Part shown: in pieces, positions 18,728 through 24,704 of the stretch
Layout of the letters: each line of letters opens with the position of its first letter
How positions within the stretch are numbered: position 1 is the stretch's first letter
NCBI GenBank assembly: GCA_029194725.1
Contig: JARFXQ010000002.1
Coordinates: forward strand, 186,001-250,000
Reading direction: 5' to 3'
Length of the DNA stretch: 64,000 bases
Origin: Nitrospira sp.
GTDB lineage: Bacteria; Nitrospirota; Nitrospiria; Nitrospirales; Nitrospiraceae
Notes under the pieces: generated by a model
Told to the model about the DNA's origin: nothing
The model's database searches: none
What the model saw: only the letters and a program-made list of their open reading frames with translations
Made by a program: the position numbers and the translations under genes

Positions 18728-19483
18728 TCACGTGAGCGCCCGTTCAAACACCGTTCGATTGAGCTGGGTGTAAGCGCTTTCACGTTCTGTCCAATCGATC
18801 CGTCCCTGGATTTCCTCCGGCGATGTCGGAACAGTTTGGTTCTCGACCGCCAAAAAGGTGCTCCAGAAATGTATATTCTTCTCTTGCTGCTTGATGATCG
18901 CGTCAAAGATCCTCCTGCGACCGTAGGCTGCCAGTCGATACGCATCTGACAATAGGCGGACTTGCTCGGCTTGGAAAGTAACAGGCCCACGTTCAGGTCT
19001 CGATGAGACACACCACGTCCATGCCATATATCCGATATCTTCCAGCGGATCTCCGGGCGCAGCCATATCAAAGTCTATAAAAGCGTGAGGCCTCCCCCCT
19101 TGAAATACCACATTGTTTGGGCCCGGATCGTGATGACACACAACTTGCCCTGGTTCCACGAGTTGGCTGTCAGCGGTTGCTGCGTGGAAGCGTTGCAACA
19201 ACTGTCCTGCACACCGGATTTGGTCATTCTCGAACCGCTGAAAGGCGGTAGGCACCCAACCAGGGATAAAGCTCAAGATATCGCGATTGTACTCATCACA
19301 GCCAAGATATCGAGGTGTGCCGTCGAAACCGATATTTGCAAGATGTGCAAGAAGCCGTGCTGTAAAAGGAGATGAAGACGTAACCGGACGTCGAACGGTA
19401 TCGCCGATACGAAGAACACCTGCCGTGAGCCGTCCACCTAACAGTATCTCTTCTTCGGCGTTCTCACCCGCAGGATGCATCAT
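18728..19483 (-). CDS. Aminoglycoside phosphotransferase-fold kinase (APH family)
   Basis: A 251-residue protein with the APH signature: the catalytic loop VVCHHDPGPNNVVF near residues 114-127 and the metal-binding HAFIDFDMAAPGDPLEDIGY near 134-153. The N-terminal lobe is short and carries GDTVRRPVTSSSPFTARLL. The family phosphorylates small molecules (aminoglycosides, choline, homoserine, fructosamine); the target here is unknown and antibiotic resistance should not be assumed. The ATG has only a weak ribosome site. It is followed downstream by the vapBC promoter region. Confidence 0.88.
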   Translation of the reverse strand: MMHPAGENAEEEILLGGRLTAGVLRIGDTVRRPVTSSSPFTARLLAHLANIGFDGTPRYLGCDEYNRDILSFIPGWVPTAFQRFENDQIRCAGQLLQRFHAATADSQLVEPGQVVCHHDPGPNNVVFQGGRPHAFIDFDMAAPGDPLEDIGYMAWTWCVSSRPERGPVTFQAEQVRLLSDAYRLAAYGRRRIFDAIIKQQEKNIHFWSTFLAVENQTVPTSPEEIQGRIDWTERESAYTQLNRTVFERALT

Positions 19484-19965: not shown

Positions 19966-21114
19966 TCAGCGTTTCTTTCGGTTGACCAGGTTACCGGATC
20001 GAACCTGACAAGCCAGGACGTCGCAGATGACGCGCGTGGCCATGAGGCTGGTAATCTCCGCCGCGTCGTAGGGCGGCGAGCACTCGACGATTTCCATTCC
20101 GGCCAGCGGCTTCGTGTCCGCGATGATCTGGAGAAACTTCAGCACTTCACGCGGGAGAAAGCCCCCCGGCTCCGGCCAGCCGGTGCCTGGCACGAAGGCG
20201 GCATCCAAGCAATCGACGTCGAAGCTCAACCACACAGCATCCACACCATCAAACGCCACCTCGAGCGCCTGCTTCGCAGCATTCTCAATGCCCATTTCCA
20301 CACAGTCGGTCACGGTCATGATCGTGGTTTGACGTTCACGGCCTGACTTCACGCCTGGTCTGGGCGCTTGCCAGCCGCCGATGCCGATCTGCACGAGATT
20401 TTTCGCCGGTACGTTGGGGATATTCGTCGCGTGAAACCAGGGCGTGGTATGCATGCGCTCATCGAGATCGGTCTCCTGTGTGTCCACATGCCGGTCGAAG
20501 TGGAGGATGCCGAGCTTCTTGCCGTTCATATTCTGAGCCACGCCCCGGACCGTCGCAAAGCCTAATGAATGGTCTCCGCCGAGGACCACGGGAAACGCGC
20601 CGCTGGCATAGACATGCCCCACGCCCTTGCTGACTTGATCGAAGGTCTTTTCGATGTTGCCGGGAATGGTAAATACGTCGCCGACATCGCAGATGGACAC
20701 GGATTCCCGCAGATCGACACCGAGCTCGAAGCTGTAGGTGCCGTACAGCGCGGAGATCTTGCGAATCCCTTGGGGGCCAAATCGAGTGCCGGAGCGATAG
20801 GTGGTCCCGCCATCGAACGGCGCGCCGAGAATGGCCACATCGTATTGACCGCACTTGCGGACATCCTCGACATACGGAGCCTTGATGAAGGTGTTGATGC
20901 CGGCGAAGTGCGGCAGTTCCCCACGGCTGAATGTCGGGATGCGGCGGTCCTTGATGGAATCGGCGCCCTGCAGGCCCAATTCAAGGCCACGGGCGACTTC
21001 TTCTTCATATTTCGTCGTCGGTAACAGCGCCTCCGCTTCCACCGCATACTTCGCCTCCGGGCCATATTTGTCATGCAGCGGAACCTTGCCTTGGTATTTC
21101 CCCTTTTTCGTCAC
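19966..21114 (-). CDS. gdmH: Ureohydrolase, probable Ni-dependent guanidine hydrolase
   Basis: A 382-residue arginase/agmatinase-fold enzyme. Metal-binding motifs are GGDHS near residue 182, HFDRHVDTQ near 207 and SFDVDCLDAAFVPGTGWPEP near 300. It has an N-terminal extension of about 85 residues before the common fold (YDVAILGAPFDGGTTYRSG), making it longer than typical agmatinases (about 300) and like known guanidine hydrolases such as cyanobacterial GdmH (about 390). The usual DAHxD reads DRHVD, an Arg for Ala change. The start is GTG 21114 with AAAGGAG. It is second in an operon behind a guanidine-I riboswitch, which is the main reason to prefer guanidine (to urea and ammonium) as substrate over agmatine or arginine. 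Confidence 0.87.
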   Translation of the reverse strand: MTKKGKYQGKVPLHDKYGPEAKYAVEAEALLPTTKYEEEVARGLELGLQGADSIKDRRIPTFSRGELPHFAGINTFIKAPYVEDVRKCGQYDVAILGAPFDGGTTYRSGTRFGPQGIRKISALYGTYSFELGVDLRESVSICDVGDVFTIPGNIEKTFDQVSKGVGHVYASGAFPVVLGGDHSLGFATVRGVAQNMNGKKLGILHFDRHVDTQETDLDERMHTTPWFHATNIPNVPAKNLVQIGIGGWQAPRPGVKSGRERQTTIMTVTDCVEMGIENAAKQALEVAFDGVDAVWLSFDVDCLDAAFVPGTGWPEPGGFLPREVLKFLQIIADTKPLAGMEIVECSPPYDAAEITSLMATRVICDVLACQVRSGNLVNRKKR

Positions 21115-21202
21115 GATGACTCCTTTCTGAGAGATGGATGAATGGATGACTCTGTTTGACCCCTCTTGTTACAACACGAAACGTAACGAATCAGCCGGCT
21201 TC

Positions 21203-22681
21203 TCACTCTTGAGTTGGTGCAGACTCCCCTGGACGCATCAATACGTCATCTCTTGTGGGTTTAACGATGAGAAGGTAGAGCGTGGTCACTCCCAAGATGC
21301 TTCCAAGAACCAGCGGGACGGCCCAGAGTTGCCACCAAGGCGCGTCGGGCGAAGTTGCGTAGGGGCGTGGCCAGGCGATATTGACGAATTCAAACACCGA
21401 CCACAGAAACGCCGCTGTATTGATCAGCAAGCCCCAGGCCCCCAGCTTCAGTTGTCCTAATGACGGGTCCCACCGACCGGTAAGCCTGGTGTAGAGTCCA
21501 ACACCGGTGGTCATCGCAAACATGGCGTACAACCCACCCGTGCCGAACGCCAGCACCGTGGCGACCGCTTCATCATTGAGCCCGAAGAGCAATCCAAGCG
21601 TGGCCAGCAGCACCGTAAACAGCACGGCATTATGCGGCGCGCCGGCCTTGGTGACCCGGCTGAGAACGTTCGGCATACTTCCTTCGCGAGCCATGGAAAA
21701 CACAATACGGGATGTGTACTGGACCATGGACGACCCGCAAGCAAGGAACGCGACCATGACAATCGTCAGAAAGGGAGTTTCCGCCCAGGTTCCCAAGTTG
21801 TTGACGATTACAGGCGTGACAGGATCGGAGGCGGCGCTTGTATGGACCAAGGTGTCGCGGTTAAAGCTCAGGGTGAGGGCGGCGGAGTTGAAGAGCACCA
21901 CGCTTCCCACCATGCAGAGCGAGAAAAAGATCGCGCGCGGCACCATCCCCTTGGGCTCGTGTGTTTCTTCAGCGATGGTCGAGCAGGCGTCGAAGCCGAT
22001 GAAGGCCCAACCAGAAATGGCAAGCGCCGCCAGAAACGCCGCGGTTTGACTGGGTGCGGTTCCGGTCCCGAGATGGGCGAACAGTTCGGAGAATTCATGC
22101 TGTCGAAAGAAAAAGAACAGCAACAGCGCGACCCCGAACGAACCGACGATTTCCGCATAGACGCCCAGGGAAATCAGGACCTTAAAGACCGCGACATGGA
22201 CCAGGTTGAGGATGGTGCAGATCAGCATAAACACCGCGCCCCAGATCACGAGGGTGACGCCAGTTCCACTTCCTGAGCCGAAGAAGATCGCCAACCAAAT
22301 CCCACCCGTGTAGGCGGTCGTGGTGAGCATTGCAATCGTGGAGCTGACATAGATGGCTCCGGCATAGGTGCCGGTAACATTGCCTCCAAGCTGTCTAGCC
22401 CATTTGTACGCGCCGCCCGCGATCGGAATCTGCGAGGACAGTTCCGCGTACACAGTCGCCACCAGTAGCTGCATCACCAGACAGAGGGCCAACGCTGGGA
22501 ACCAACCACCGCCTGCGACCACCGTCTGGACGCCGATAATGGCGTACAGTCCGGCCACCGGTGAGACGGTGGCGAACCCGATGGTGAGGCTGTTCCAGAG
22601 ACTGAGGCTGCGATTGAGGGTCTCGGGAGGATTTATAGTGGAAGCAGGAAAAACCGTATCCGGACTTTCTTTCATTACCAT
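21203..22681 (-). CDS. APC-family permease, probable guanidine(-compound) importer
   Basis: A permease of about 490 residues with some 12 hydrophobic helices of the amino acid/polyamine/organocation superfamily. Family features are the unwound first helix SLTIGFATVSPVAGLYAI, the IPIAGGAYKWARQLGG segment near residue 87, and GWAFIGFDACSTIAEETHEP near 240. Two starts are possible, ATG 22681 or ATG 22675; the second overlaps the TAA of the 25-codon leader ORF (TAATG), indicating translational coupling. The reading frame stays open to 22795, but that extension crosses the leader and riboswitch 3' region and is not expected to be translated. It is first in the operon with the ureohydrolase, 88 bp downstream. 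Confidence 0.87.
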   Translation of the reverse strand: MVMKESPDTVFPASTINPPETLNRSLSLWNSLTIGFATVSPVAGLYAIIGVQTVVAGGGWFPALALCLVMQLLVATVYAELSSQIPIAGGAYKWARQLGGNVTGTYAGAIYVSSTIAMLTTTAYTGGIWLAIFFGSGSGTGVTLVIWGAVFMLICTILNLVHVAVFKVLISLGVYAEIVGSFGVALLLFFFFRQHEFSELFAHLGTGTAPSQTAAFLAALAISGWAFIGFDACSTIAEETHEPKGMVPRAIFFSLCMVGSVVLFNSAALTLSFNRDTLVHTSAASDPVTPVIVNNLGTWAETPFLTIVMVAFLACGSSMVQYTSRIVFSMAREGSMPNVLSRVTKAGAPHNAVLFTVLLATLGLLFGLNDEAVATVLAFGTGGLYAMFAMTTGVGLYTRLTGRWDPSLGQLKLGAWGLLINTAAFLWSVFEFVNIAWPRPYATSPDAPWWQLWAVPLVLGSILGVTTLYLLIVKPTRDDVLMRPGESAPTQE

Positions 22682-22752
22682 GACAGACCACTCTGACGTG
22701 GTAGCAGATCTGACCGATCCGGTACAGAAGGAACTATGGAATGGAGATGCAT
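22675..22752 (-). CDS. 25-codon leader ORF between riboswitch and permease
   Basis: ATG 22752 is preceded by a perfect AGGAGG (22765-22760) with 7-bp spacing, the best ribosome site in the operon. It opens a frame of 25 codons starting MHLHSIVPSV and ending QSGLSW, with TAA at 22677-22675 overlapping the permease ATG as TAATG. It is out of frame with the permease (+1 relative). It could be a leader peptide that couples translation, or the true permease N-terminus cut off by a single-base frameshift in the genome or the assembly. It contains no attenuator-like run of one amino acid. Confidence 0.6.
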   Translation of the reverse strand: MHLHSIVPSVPDRSDLLPRQSGLSW

Positions 22753-22792
22753 AACGAAGCCTCCTGTTGGAAGGACTAACTTCCCAAAAGGC

Positions 22793-22810
22793 CATGTACC
22801 TCAGTACATG
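22793..22810 (-). promoter_or_regulatory. Hairpin in the riboswitch expression platform
   Basis: A perfect 7-bp stem CATGTAC / GTACATG with a 4-base loop lies directly 3' of the aptamer and upstream of the leader-ORF ribosome site. There is no T tract, so control of translation is more likely than termination. Confidence 0.5.
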
Positions 22811-22910
22811 ATCTCCCGGGCTTTTATCCCTCCGTGGAGCCTCGTTATGCGAGGCCGGAAACTCTTGGACCAGACACTCCCCCTGAAGGCAGCCGGAACC
22901 CTAGTTTCCC
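22811..22910 (-). promoter_or_regulatory. Guanidine-I (ykkC) riboswitch aptamer
   Basis: On the minus strand the conserved ykkC elements appear in order: CTAGGGTTCCG (22904-22894), CTGGTCC followed by AAGAG (22873-22862), a variable GC-rich hairpin (GGCCTCGCATAACGAGGCT), then CACGG and GGGATAAAAGCCCGGGAGA (22830-22812). These are the hallmark positions of the guanidine-I class. The aptamer begins about 15 bases after the predicted transcription start and is followed by the leader ORF, permease and ureohydrolase, all on the same strand. Free guanidinium should turn the operon on. Confidence 0.95.
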
Positions 22911-22931
22911 TTTTGGAACGATTTTGTCAGG

Positions 22932-22960
22932 ATCCTATTGTCTCGCCATGCCAAAGTCAA
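22932..22960 (-). promoter_or_regulatory. Sigma70 promoter of the guanidine operon
   Basis: TTGACT (-35, plus-strand 22960-22955) and TAGGAT (-10, 22937-22932) are separated by exactly 17 bp. The predicted start near 22925 falls just before the aptamer, which supports the assignment. Confidence 0.7.
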
Positions 22961-23077: not shown

Positions 23078-24547
23078 TCACCGGCAGAAGAAGTGACAGT
23101 ATTCGACGGGGCTGGGCGGGGCACTGAGTGCCATACTAATGGCATCGCTCTCGTAGCCGATCGCTTCTAAGTCTTTTTGCGCCCGGGCAAGTTCTTCTTC
23201 GGTCAGGTAGGCCACAGTGTCAGGAACGCCATTGTCTTTCAGGGAGCGCAGAATGGCATTCGACGTCTCTCTTTCTTCAGGCGGCGTGTTGGCGTTGAGG
23301 GGGAAATCTATCCGGCGACGATAGGAACTTTCGAACGTCTCATTCAACGCTTTAATGGTCTTCAGGACGAGTCTGTCCTGTTCCCAGGGCTGGAGCTTTG
23401 GTCCTGCGGTCGAGTGGGTCGCCAACAGGTCCATGAGCGTAATCACATTGGTATTCAACGACCGCCCGACGAATTCCCGCTGCGACTCGACCGTCATCTG
23501 CTTCAGCCCCAGCTGCTTGGCCACGGCCTGAATCAATGCAAAGTTGACCATGAAGCTATATTGGCCTCCAAACTGGCCGTAACAGGGTTTCTCGGGATCG
23601 TTCAAAACCTTCATGTCGGCCGTCCCGGCATCGAAGGCACTGAACCCGATTGCGTCGGGAGCCAGGAGACGCTTCGCTTCTTTCAACGTTGCGAAGGCAC
23701 CGACGTTCACCGGCACTAAGACATCTTGGTCGATGGACTGCAGAAATTCCGCAATCGTTTTCCGATAGGACACGTCTTTCCATTCAATTGTGCGGTATTC
23801 TCTTTCCCAGACCAATCCATCGAGAAAGGGAGGGAAAGTCTTGAGCGTGGCAAGATTCTTCTCCTGAAACGCCCGGACGAACGCCGACCAATCCTGAATC
23901 GTGGCATGGAGCGATTCGCTGAGGTTGGGACGGAGATATTCTTCTTCGACTTCGCCCCCATGTTTCACCAACAATTTCGTCGGAAGATCGTTCCACAGCT
24001 CATTACAGAAGATTCGATCGATGGTCGCCTCGGCCACGCCGGCCACATGTTCGATCGAACCGCAATGGCTGTCCACACGATCCCGATGAACCGCCAGATC
24101 CGGATGTGCCAAAGCCCTGTCCAACACCAGCTGTTCCCAGTCGACCATAACGTACCGAACCCGTCGATAAATCGTGTTCTGCCTATCGAGGGTCTTGAGA
24201 TGGCTGAGGAAACAGACGGCGAGATTCCCGTTCCCGGGCCCAAGCTCCAGAATCGTGAGGCGAGACTCGCTGGACAAGCGTGACTGGCGGGACAATTCCG
24301 AGGAGCCCGTCGAAGCCGTCTCGCCTTTCCCGCGTTTCACGCCCGTCTCGCGCTTCGTGACACGCTCGAAATAATCGGCCGCCAGCGCATGGGCGAGACG
24401 GAAGTCCGCGGACGCAAAGGTCTGGTAATAGGATCGAAGGTTGTCTCCCCGCAGCCCATAGAAGAGCTGGTTGAGATGAGCCTGCCACTGATCAAGCGGC
24501 TTGTATTCACCGATCAGCTGTGGAAGGGCGTCCGCATCTTGCAGCAT
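23078..24547 (-). CDS. SAM-dependent methyltransferase, MidA/NDUFAF7-like (COG1565)
   Basis: A protein of 489 residues from ATG 24547 (GAGAG upstream); the frame is open to 24634. A Rossmann SAM-binding motif LTILELGPGNGNLA lies near residue 98, followed by the family segment YVMVDWEQLVLDRALAHPDL and CNELWNDLPTKLLV. These order like MidA, whose mitochondrial member symmetrically dimethylates an arginine of NDUFS2 in complex I. The role in bacteria is less certain. The C-terminal 130 residues are not typical of the family. It has no signal peptide. Confidence 0.8.
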   Translation of the reverse strand: MLQDADALPQLIGEYKPLDQWQAHLNQLFYGLRGDNLRSYYQTFASADFRLAHALAADYFERVTKRETGVKRGKGETASTGSSELSRQSRLSSESRLTILELGPGNGNLAVCFLSHLKTLDRQNTIYRRVRYVMVDWEQLVLDRALAHPDLAVHRDRVDSHCGSIEHVAGVAEATIDRIFCNELWNDLPTKLLVKHGGEVEEEYLRPNLSESLHATIQDWSAFVRAFQEKNLATLKTFPPFLDGLVWEREYRTIEWKDVSYRKTIAEFLQSIDQDVLVPVNVGAFATLKEAKRLLAPDAIGFSAFDAGTADMKVLNDPEKPCYGQFGGQYSFMVNFALIQAVAKQLGLKQMTVESQREFVGRSLNTNVITLMDLLATHSTAGPKLQPWEQDRLVLKTIKALNETFESSYRRRIDFPLNANTPPEERETSNAILRSLKDNGVPDTVAYLTEEELARAQKDLEAIGYESDAISMALSAPPSPVEYCHFFCR

Positions 24548-24704
24548 ACTCTCACAATCACTGGTAATGGATTGGCGAATAGACCATGGTGGGCGAAATC
24601 CTAGCAGAAGCCCGGAAAACGCCGCAATGGGCAACTTGCTCGATCGTTTGCCATGGTTTGATGGTTTATTGACAGGGTCGCCTCAAGAGGTGTAGCAGAC
24701 AGTC

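Follow-up and report, generated by a model that had tools for sequence, protein, structure and literature searches.

A predicted guanidine-use operon in a comammox Nitrospira genome

The stretch of DNA analysed here, called the window below, comprises 64,000 nucleotides of contig JARFXQ010000002.1 (positions 186,001 to 250,000 of the forward strand) from the Nitrospira sp. assembly GCA_029194725.1. Its minus strand, to which all features of the window described below belong, carries a guanidine-I (ykkC) riboswitch followed by a short leader open reading frame (ORF), an APC permease and a ureohydrolase. A preliminary description, made from the letters of the sequence, had read these elements as a guanidine-use operon of a nitrifier-like organism; the leader ORF between aptamer and permease was not mentioned in it. 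We focus here on the RNA that links the aptamer to the permease, as its conserved complementarity to the aptamer suggests a control of translation.

The complete ykkC aptamer proposed earlier is confirmed by its Rfam covariance model: positions 22811-22915 match RF00442 over model positions 1-107 of 107 at 93.1 bits (E 1.5e-15; gathering score 63 bits), which places this RNA, by sequence, in the guanidine-I class. No other match was found in the source genome, which is 78.2% complete. Upstream lies a promoter-like pair, TTGACT-17-TAGGAT (22932-22960), with 9 of 12 consensus matches. The promoter of the preliminary description fared less evenly: a TTGAC no more than 75 nucleotides (nt) ahead of the aptamer core is kept in 47 of 48 related loci, the window's own among them, but in a consensus scan the pair was not above chance (1 found, 1.3 expected).

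The permease (21203-22681, 492 amino acids) is a member of AA_permease_2 (PF13520, 127 bits), as had been described. An APC family gene adjoining a guanidine-I switch is what marks a predicted guanidine importer, a prediction that is already in the literature (PMC11410670). The start of this gene is likely at 22681 and not at 22795, the first start of its ORF. We rejected 22795 because that ATG falls inside the hairpin which follows the aptamer (see below) and because the permease frame carries a stop between the corresponding ATG and the permease in 17 of 46 scorable loci; position 22681, in addition, aligns with a methionine in both relatives whose N-termini are in the alignment.

The 382-residue ureohydrolase (19966-21114), likewise as described, belongs to the arginase family (PF00491, 257 bits); it begins with a GTG at 21114, after a gap of 88 nt, and has a Shine-Dalgarno (SD) sequence of its own, GAAAGGAG. 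It is identical at 365 of 382 positions (95.5%, 850.8 bits) to 9fek, a crystal chain of the Nitrospira inopinata guanidinase, and scores 572.2 bits with 7esr/7oi1, an entry titled 'Probable agmatinase 2' which we take to be cyanobacterial GdmH; the best other protein reaches 178.6 bits, and the score with the agmatinase equivalog stays below the cut-off (164.1 versus 174.3). The Data availability section of PMC11410670 names 9fek as its crystal structure, and the residues named in that paper for the N. inopinata enzyme, Thr105, His222 and Trp313 (required) and Glu344, are all present here under the same numbering. Judged by scores, identity and signature residues, the hydrolase groups with the guanidinases and not with the agmatinases, which answers the question that the preliminary description had raised about it. 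Together with the aptamer match, this grouping supports the riboswitch, permease and ureohydrolase as one unit for the use of guanidine.

The source genome consists of 3.6 Mb in 57 contigs, and the window sits on the contig numbered C52 in our set. As amoA lies on that same contig (C52:68905-69612) and the genome also has amoC and a multi-haem cytochrome of the HAO type, along with urease alpha, the organism is a comammox Nitrospira, so that 'nitrifier-like' was a fitting guess. A second, incomplete amo/hao region was also seen, with a partial amoA and a partial multi-haem cytochrome at opposite ends of a 7-kb contig (G000:C56:1-7228); it is likely a second copy cut by the assembly.

Distribution of the riboswitch and its permease

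Among 175 genomes of the family Nitrospiraceae, RF00442 was found in 49 (in 48 above the cut-off), amoA in 61, the guanidinase in 65 (E 1e-40 or better) and the permease in 67. Thirty-nine of the 49 riboswitch genomes have amoA. We considered whether the other ten might be canonical nitrite oxidisers with the full triad of riboswitch, permease and guanidinase, and rejected this, since eight of them (G062, G073, G083, G084, G085, G105, G117 and G128) have an HAO-type PF13447 match, each above 455 bits, and the remaining two (G086 and G104) have a full-length amoC; their lack of amoA most likely reflects incomplete bins. A search for amoC in G054 and G055, which have neither amoA nor the riboswitch, found none. 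In a sample of the whole phylum the riboswitch was present in 37 of 395 genomes, that is in 2 of 169 genera, and all of these were already in the family set. Of the 52 RF00442 matches, all but a 39.5-bit fragment (G058:C16) were taken. Both core motifs are present in 48 of these 51, which come from 47 genomes; the three dropped are those of G077 and G080 and the second one of G142.

Other arrangements were also met in the family. In G116 (contig C1) the riboswitch and permease lie distant from the guanidinase (3601218-3602687 versus 1149936-1151081), and in G117 they are on a different contig; each of these genomes has a single RF00442 match, so the guanidinase is there without a riboswitch of its own. 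In one genus (g17) the guanidinase occurs in 12 genomes and the riboswitch in only one of them (G142), and in three examples, G135:C9:23792-26502, G144:C54 and G151:C52, the permease and guanidinase genes are convergent.

A contig scan with four comammox permeases gave 151 relatives, of which the best 80 loci were kept. Within these 80, 32 loci belong to Nitrosospira, Nitrosomonas, Nitrosovibrio or similar ammonia-oxidising Betaproteobacteria (AOB; L120, titled Nitrosospira, was left out of this number, as its contig agrees in length and in the place of the permease with contig C12 of the comammox genome G124), and their permeases are 69-79% identical to the window's permease over the best segment. 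RF00442 was above threshold in all 23 AOB loci scanned and absent from 9 of the 10 Nitrospira-type loci scanned among the same 80. Three of the 32 AOB loci are without the core motif and 29 have an SD-linked start; in one (L147) no aptamer is left on the contig. Because the permeases are so similar and the switch is found in so few genera of the phylum sample, the switch and the permease have, as far as sequences can tell, likely been transferred as a unit between Nitrospirota and Betaproteobacteria (comammox loci and AOB loci L134-L174).

The RNA behind the aptamer is predicted to fold over a start codon

In 47 of the 48 comammox loci an SD sequence and an ATG lie 54-60 nt past the aptamer core; in the window this SD is AGGAGG (22760-22765). 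An alignment of these 47 loci contains long invariant stretches well beyond the aptamer, among them much of GATCATGTAC..GTACATGGCC and the last part of AGGAGGCTTCGTTATG, and the SD is conserved in it as well. Such conservation is unusual, because riboswitch expression platforms almost always drift according to PMC7266159. The remaining comammox locus (G058:C42:102096-103767) has the aptamer and the upper hairpin, without the leader SD and start, and its contig ends just past the permease.

The 3' half of the aptamer and the RNA that follows it fold into one long hairpin, which draws in the second hairpin of the aptamer together with the aptamer's conserved 3' strand and has the start codon at its closing end. 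The predicted 5' arm (22804-22850) consists of the aptamer's 3' half from the second hairpin on and the start of the next hairpin, and the predicted 3' arm (22749-22799) includes the SD and the start codon. For the window this hairpin has a folding energy of -54.6 kcal/mol, versus -27.8 with a shuffled tail (z -9.4). When only the post-aptamer sequence was shuffled, z lay between -3.9 and -11.1 in 47 of 47 comammox loci, and when in addition the start codon was kept fixed, it averaged -5.7, with -3.3 as the weakest value. Minimum-energy folding pairs the whole start codon with the aptamer half in 41 of the 47 loci, as against about 9% in shuffles.

Pair counts in the alignment are in line with these folds. 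The helix over the SD and AUG pairs in 95.2% of cells, with four pairs changed on both sides, and the upper helix in 98.3%; over the whole long hairpin there are 6 double-change cells, versus 1.7 in shuffled alignments, a value reached in none of 500 shuffles. Masking of the aptamer raised the mean unpaired value of the AUG from 0.07 to 0.46. A further pairing, which we call P0, is predicted between 22909-22916 (CCAAAAGG) and 22784-22791 (CCUUUUGG), that is between the front of the aptamer and the RNA behind it. Its two strands pair in 95.7% of cells across the 47 comammox loci, with 4 double-change cells versus 0.8 shuffled, which gives P0 moderate support.

Start codon and aptamer loop change together

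The complementarity between the aptamer and the start region can be followed beyond Nitrospira. We compared six aptamer-loop bases with the six bases ending in the start codon in 75 loci (47 comammox, 28 AOB), in the register given by the structure, the same as that of the pair counts above. At least five standard pairs form in 70 of the 75 loci and all six in 46. Matched hexamers include CAUAAC/GUUAUG, CAUGAC/GUCAUG, CAUGGC/GCCAUG and CAUAGC/GCUAUG, and in one Nitrosospira locus (L144), in which the start is a GUG (GUCGUG), the aptamer loop reads CACGAC.

For the 25 distinct hexamer combinations, own partners form more Watson-Crick pairs than swapped partners (4.84 versus 4.36 of 6, 0 of 5000 swaps as high) and more standard pairs (5.32 versus 5.11, P 0.003), in a test which takes the loci without regard to their relatedness. 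The advantage is confined to the structure-given register and was not seen in four others tried. The complementarity of the aptamer's 3' half with the start region is thus both conserved and covarying.

A short leader ORF ends on the permease start

In the window, the start codon at the end of the hairpin opens a 25-codon ORF (22675-22752, MHLHSIVPSVPDRSDLLPRQSGLSW), the TAA stop of which (22677-22675) lies one base past the permease ATG (22681-22679), so that the two genes overlap; the two AUGs are 71 nt apart. Forty-six of the 48 loci could be scored for such a leader (G079 meets a contig end and G058 has no start). With 'ending at the permease start' taken as from 12 nt after to 3 nt before the permease-frame ATG or GTG, 38 of the 46 leaders end there, eight are fused to the permease in frame and none ends earlier. 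The non-fused comammox leaders have 23-30 codons. In all 37 distinct non-fused leaders the frame is free of stops, while the other two frames have stops in 26 and 8, although this difference is partly built into the definition of the class.

The leader peptide itself is without clear purifying selection, so that the leader appears to be a ribosome relay, like that of the B12 riboswitch of Mycobacterium tuberculosis ppe2 (see below), and not the source of a working peptide. In the AOB the arrangement is more varied: the SD-linked start opens the permease directly in 14 loci and a leader ORF of 14-123 amino acids in 15.

Five other guanidine-I loci, picked from plasmid hits, served as a small control (three of them are related rhizobia). 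RF00442 scored above threshold in all six loci of the plasmid outgroup, and the start codon was fully paired to the aptamer half in 0 of the 5 control loci. Another observation concerns a plasmid of Rubrobacter indicoceani (L190, 1416-3025), where a guanidine-I aptamer (75.7 bits) precedes the genes of an agmatinase-family protein and a sodium:solute symporter; by its gene content, this is possibly another guanidinase operon with a third type of importer.

A translational ON switch with a ribosome relay is the favoured explanation

We propose that the comammox guanidine-I riboswitch is a translational ON switch: it would act on a short leader ORF, from which ribosomes would pass on to the permease. 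We hold this to be reasonably probable. In the absence of guanidine, the aptamer's 3' half (from 22850) would pair with the RNA down to 22749 in one long hairpin, which would destroy the aptamer and bury the leader AUG and part of its SD. Guanidine would stabilise the aptamer, P0 (CCAAAAGG with CCUUUUGG) may then keep the invading strand bound, and the start region would become accessible. After reading the 25 codons, ribosomes would terminate on the permease start codon and initiate there anew; in some lineages the hidden AUG would be the permease's own start. The guanidine imported by the permease would be split into urea and ammonium by the guanidinase, whose synthesis the switch may also influence, and urease would liberate the remainder, which would then supply ammonia oxidation. 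A broader idea is that a distinct translational form of the guanidine-I switch, in which the aptamer loop pairs with the start codon, is common to nitrifiers from two phyla and moved together with the permease, the comammox relay ORF handing the ribosomes on; this we regard as only marginally better than an even bet.

Several results weigh against this proposal. In the 47-locus alignment the middle helix pairs in only 76.1% of cells, neither the overall covariation score (0.078 versus 0.076, 70 of 500 shuffles as high) nor the number of pair types (178 of 500) is above shuffles, and a register slid by -2 also gives 6 double-change cells, with 42.8% of cells paired. RNAalifold alone favours the aptamer plus P0; this is expected if both states are selected, but the long hairpin is then not the consensus minimum. 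Masking the aptamer did not free the SD (mean unpaired 0.31 before and 0.19 after, more open in only 8 of 47 loci). The register of P0 is not unique, as +1 pairs in 86.4% of cells and -1 and +2 have 7 and 8 double-change cells. One comammox locus (G058) is without a leader start, and selection at the protein level is not clear in the leader (over 22 distinct leaders, dN/dS is 0.63 in the leader frame and 0.56 and 1.57 in the two others). In the AOB, only 5 of the 15 leaders end at the permease start by the comammox definition, pairing of the start codon with the aptamer half is complete in 13 of 28 loci and absent in 7, and hairpin z with the start codon fixed averages -3.4 (weakest -1.4), while the five control loci have a mean of -2.3 as well. 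The swap test's disregard of relatedness belongs here too. Finally, permease and guanidinase mRNA are reported to rise with guanidine in sludge, as a transcription switch would have it (PMC11410670), although translation-dependent mRNA stability or Rho could also raise mRNA with guanidine.

The last point leads to control of transcription, in which the RNA behind the aptamer would end transcription without guanidine and guanidine would prevent this. The class is usually a transcriptional ON switch according to a 2025 review (PMC12186494), and PMC11410670 calls it a transcriptional suppressor and reports induction at the mRNA level. The hairpin UCAUGUAC/GUACAUGG is followed by CCUUUU, and one weak terminator-like site was found in the leader (22774-22760), one of 8 in the 3.5 kb scanned, where 2.8 are expected; AOB loci vary in U-richness after the aptamer, with 6-7 U in 8 in some Nitrosomonas loci (up to 7 in two of them), which speaks against our proposal as well. 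In comammox, however, 5 U in 8 is the most that is seen after the aptamer (in 6 of the 47 loci, the other 41 having fewer), so that an intrinsic terminator, the usual though not universal form for guanidine-I, was not found there, as judged by pattern only. Among the control loci, the one from Pantoea shows this usual form, its hairpin running into seven T, while the rhizobial loci show no clear U-run. The conserved long hairpin of comammox ends in a start codon and not in a U-run, and the start side covaries with the aptamer loop, which a terminator would not require. Transcriptional control therefore seems to us unlikely, yet it deserves to be taken seriously.

A translational switch might also work with an untranslated leader, its SD serving as a standby or loading site for initiation at the permease AUG some 70 nt downstream. 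There is a parallel in the SAM-II riboswitch of Sinorhizobium metA, which needs its SD even though the start lies 74 nt downstream (PMC9373788), a distance close to the 71 nt found here, and the missing sign of selection on the leader protein would suit such a site. But the stop-free leader frame described above argues for translation, with the reservation on its definition given there, and 8 comammox and 14 AOB loci have this same AUG as the first codon of the permease itself, which marks it as a usable start; we consider the standby site improbable. That the leader peptide is a sensor or attenuator has the conserved length and position of the comammox leader in its favour, but the leader sequence varies without clear coding constraint and a separate leader ORF is absent from the same 8 comammox and 14 AOB loci, which makes this very improbable. 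The hydrolase could hardly be an agmatinase-type enzyme with another main substrate, despite the agmatinase label of its family in generic databases, given its near identity to a characterised guanidinase, its four signature residues and the only very minor release of urea from agmatine reported for the N. inopinata enzyme (PMC11410670).

Relation to known systems

The triad of riboswitch, permease and guanidinase is itself already published and not new. Palatinszky et al. (2024) surveyed 83 comammox genomes and reported the guanidine-I riboswitch in 56, with the permease adjoining in all 56 and the guanidinase next in 46, as well as growth of N. inopinata on guanidine, guanidinase activity (with Ni), the structure of the enzyme and induction in sludge (PMC11410670). 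The window resembles that system in aptamer class, gene order, strand and guild, and its enzyme is the close relative of 9fek described above. A Nitrospirales comparison of 2025 lists the guanidinase in only two non-comammox genomes, in both without transporter or riboswitch (PMC12342949).

The start-hiding hairpin and the leader ORF, for which we found no report in the literature searched, are apparently the new parts. Neither a translational guanidine-I platform nor a nitrifier leader ORF appeared in titles and abstracts of open-licence PMC papers, a search which an earlier mention may have escaped. The main text of PMC11410670, taken by itself, does not contain 'expression platform', 'leader', 'Shine', 'uORF' or 'terminator'; it describes the class as a transcriptional suppressor, while the platform in the window is predicted to be translational. 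Terminator-type guanidine-I (ykkC) switches are like the window in aptamer, ligand and ON logic (PMC12186494), and the window differs in a platform that is U-poor and ends in a start codon. In guanidine-II and -III switches guanidine frees a translation start, as proposed here, but these have different aptamers (PMC12186494) and the window is not a member of either class.

Two known riboswitches resemble parts of the proposed mechanism. In ppe2 of M. tuberculosis a translated leader ORF hands ribosomes to an overlapping gene by termination-reinitiation (PMC11260477), as is suggested here; that system is a B12-dependent OFF switch in which coupling was shown by experiment, whereas the leader in the window is known from its sequence anatomy, and we claim no relation between them. 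In the SAM-II riboswitch of Sinorhizobium meliloti metA, the SD is riboswitch-controlled and the spacing to the start in use is similar to that of the window (PMC9373788), but it is an OFF switch for SAM, with an in-frame second AUG and a terminator in between.

The closest parallel outside Nitrospirota is found in the guanidine carboxylase operons of Nitrosospira and Nitrosomonas, which have the same riboswitch and permease type and serve a carboxylase pathway and not a guanidinase (PMC11410670). Start-hiding complementarity is present in many of them. The pairing is weaker in most Nitrosomonas loci, where the AUG behind the SD belongs to the permease itself.

If the switch is indeed translational, a platform that pairs with a start codon would be added to a class described as usually transcriptional, and this pairing would span Nitrospirota and Betaproteobacteria. 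In that case the response to guanidine may be understated or misread when judged from mRNA abundance alone, and gene calls may place the permease start wrongly.

Neighbouring genes

Two further minus-strand genes flank the operon. A PF02636 methyltransferase (23078-24634) lies directly upstream of the promoter and an APH-family protein (18728-19483) downstream of the operon; no link of either to guanidine was found in a search for protein families.

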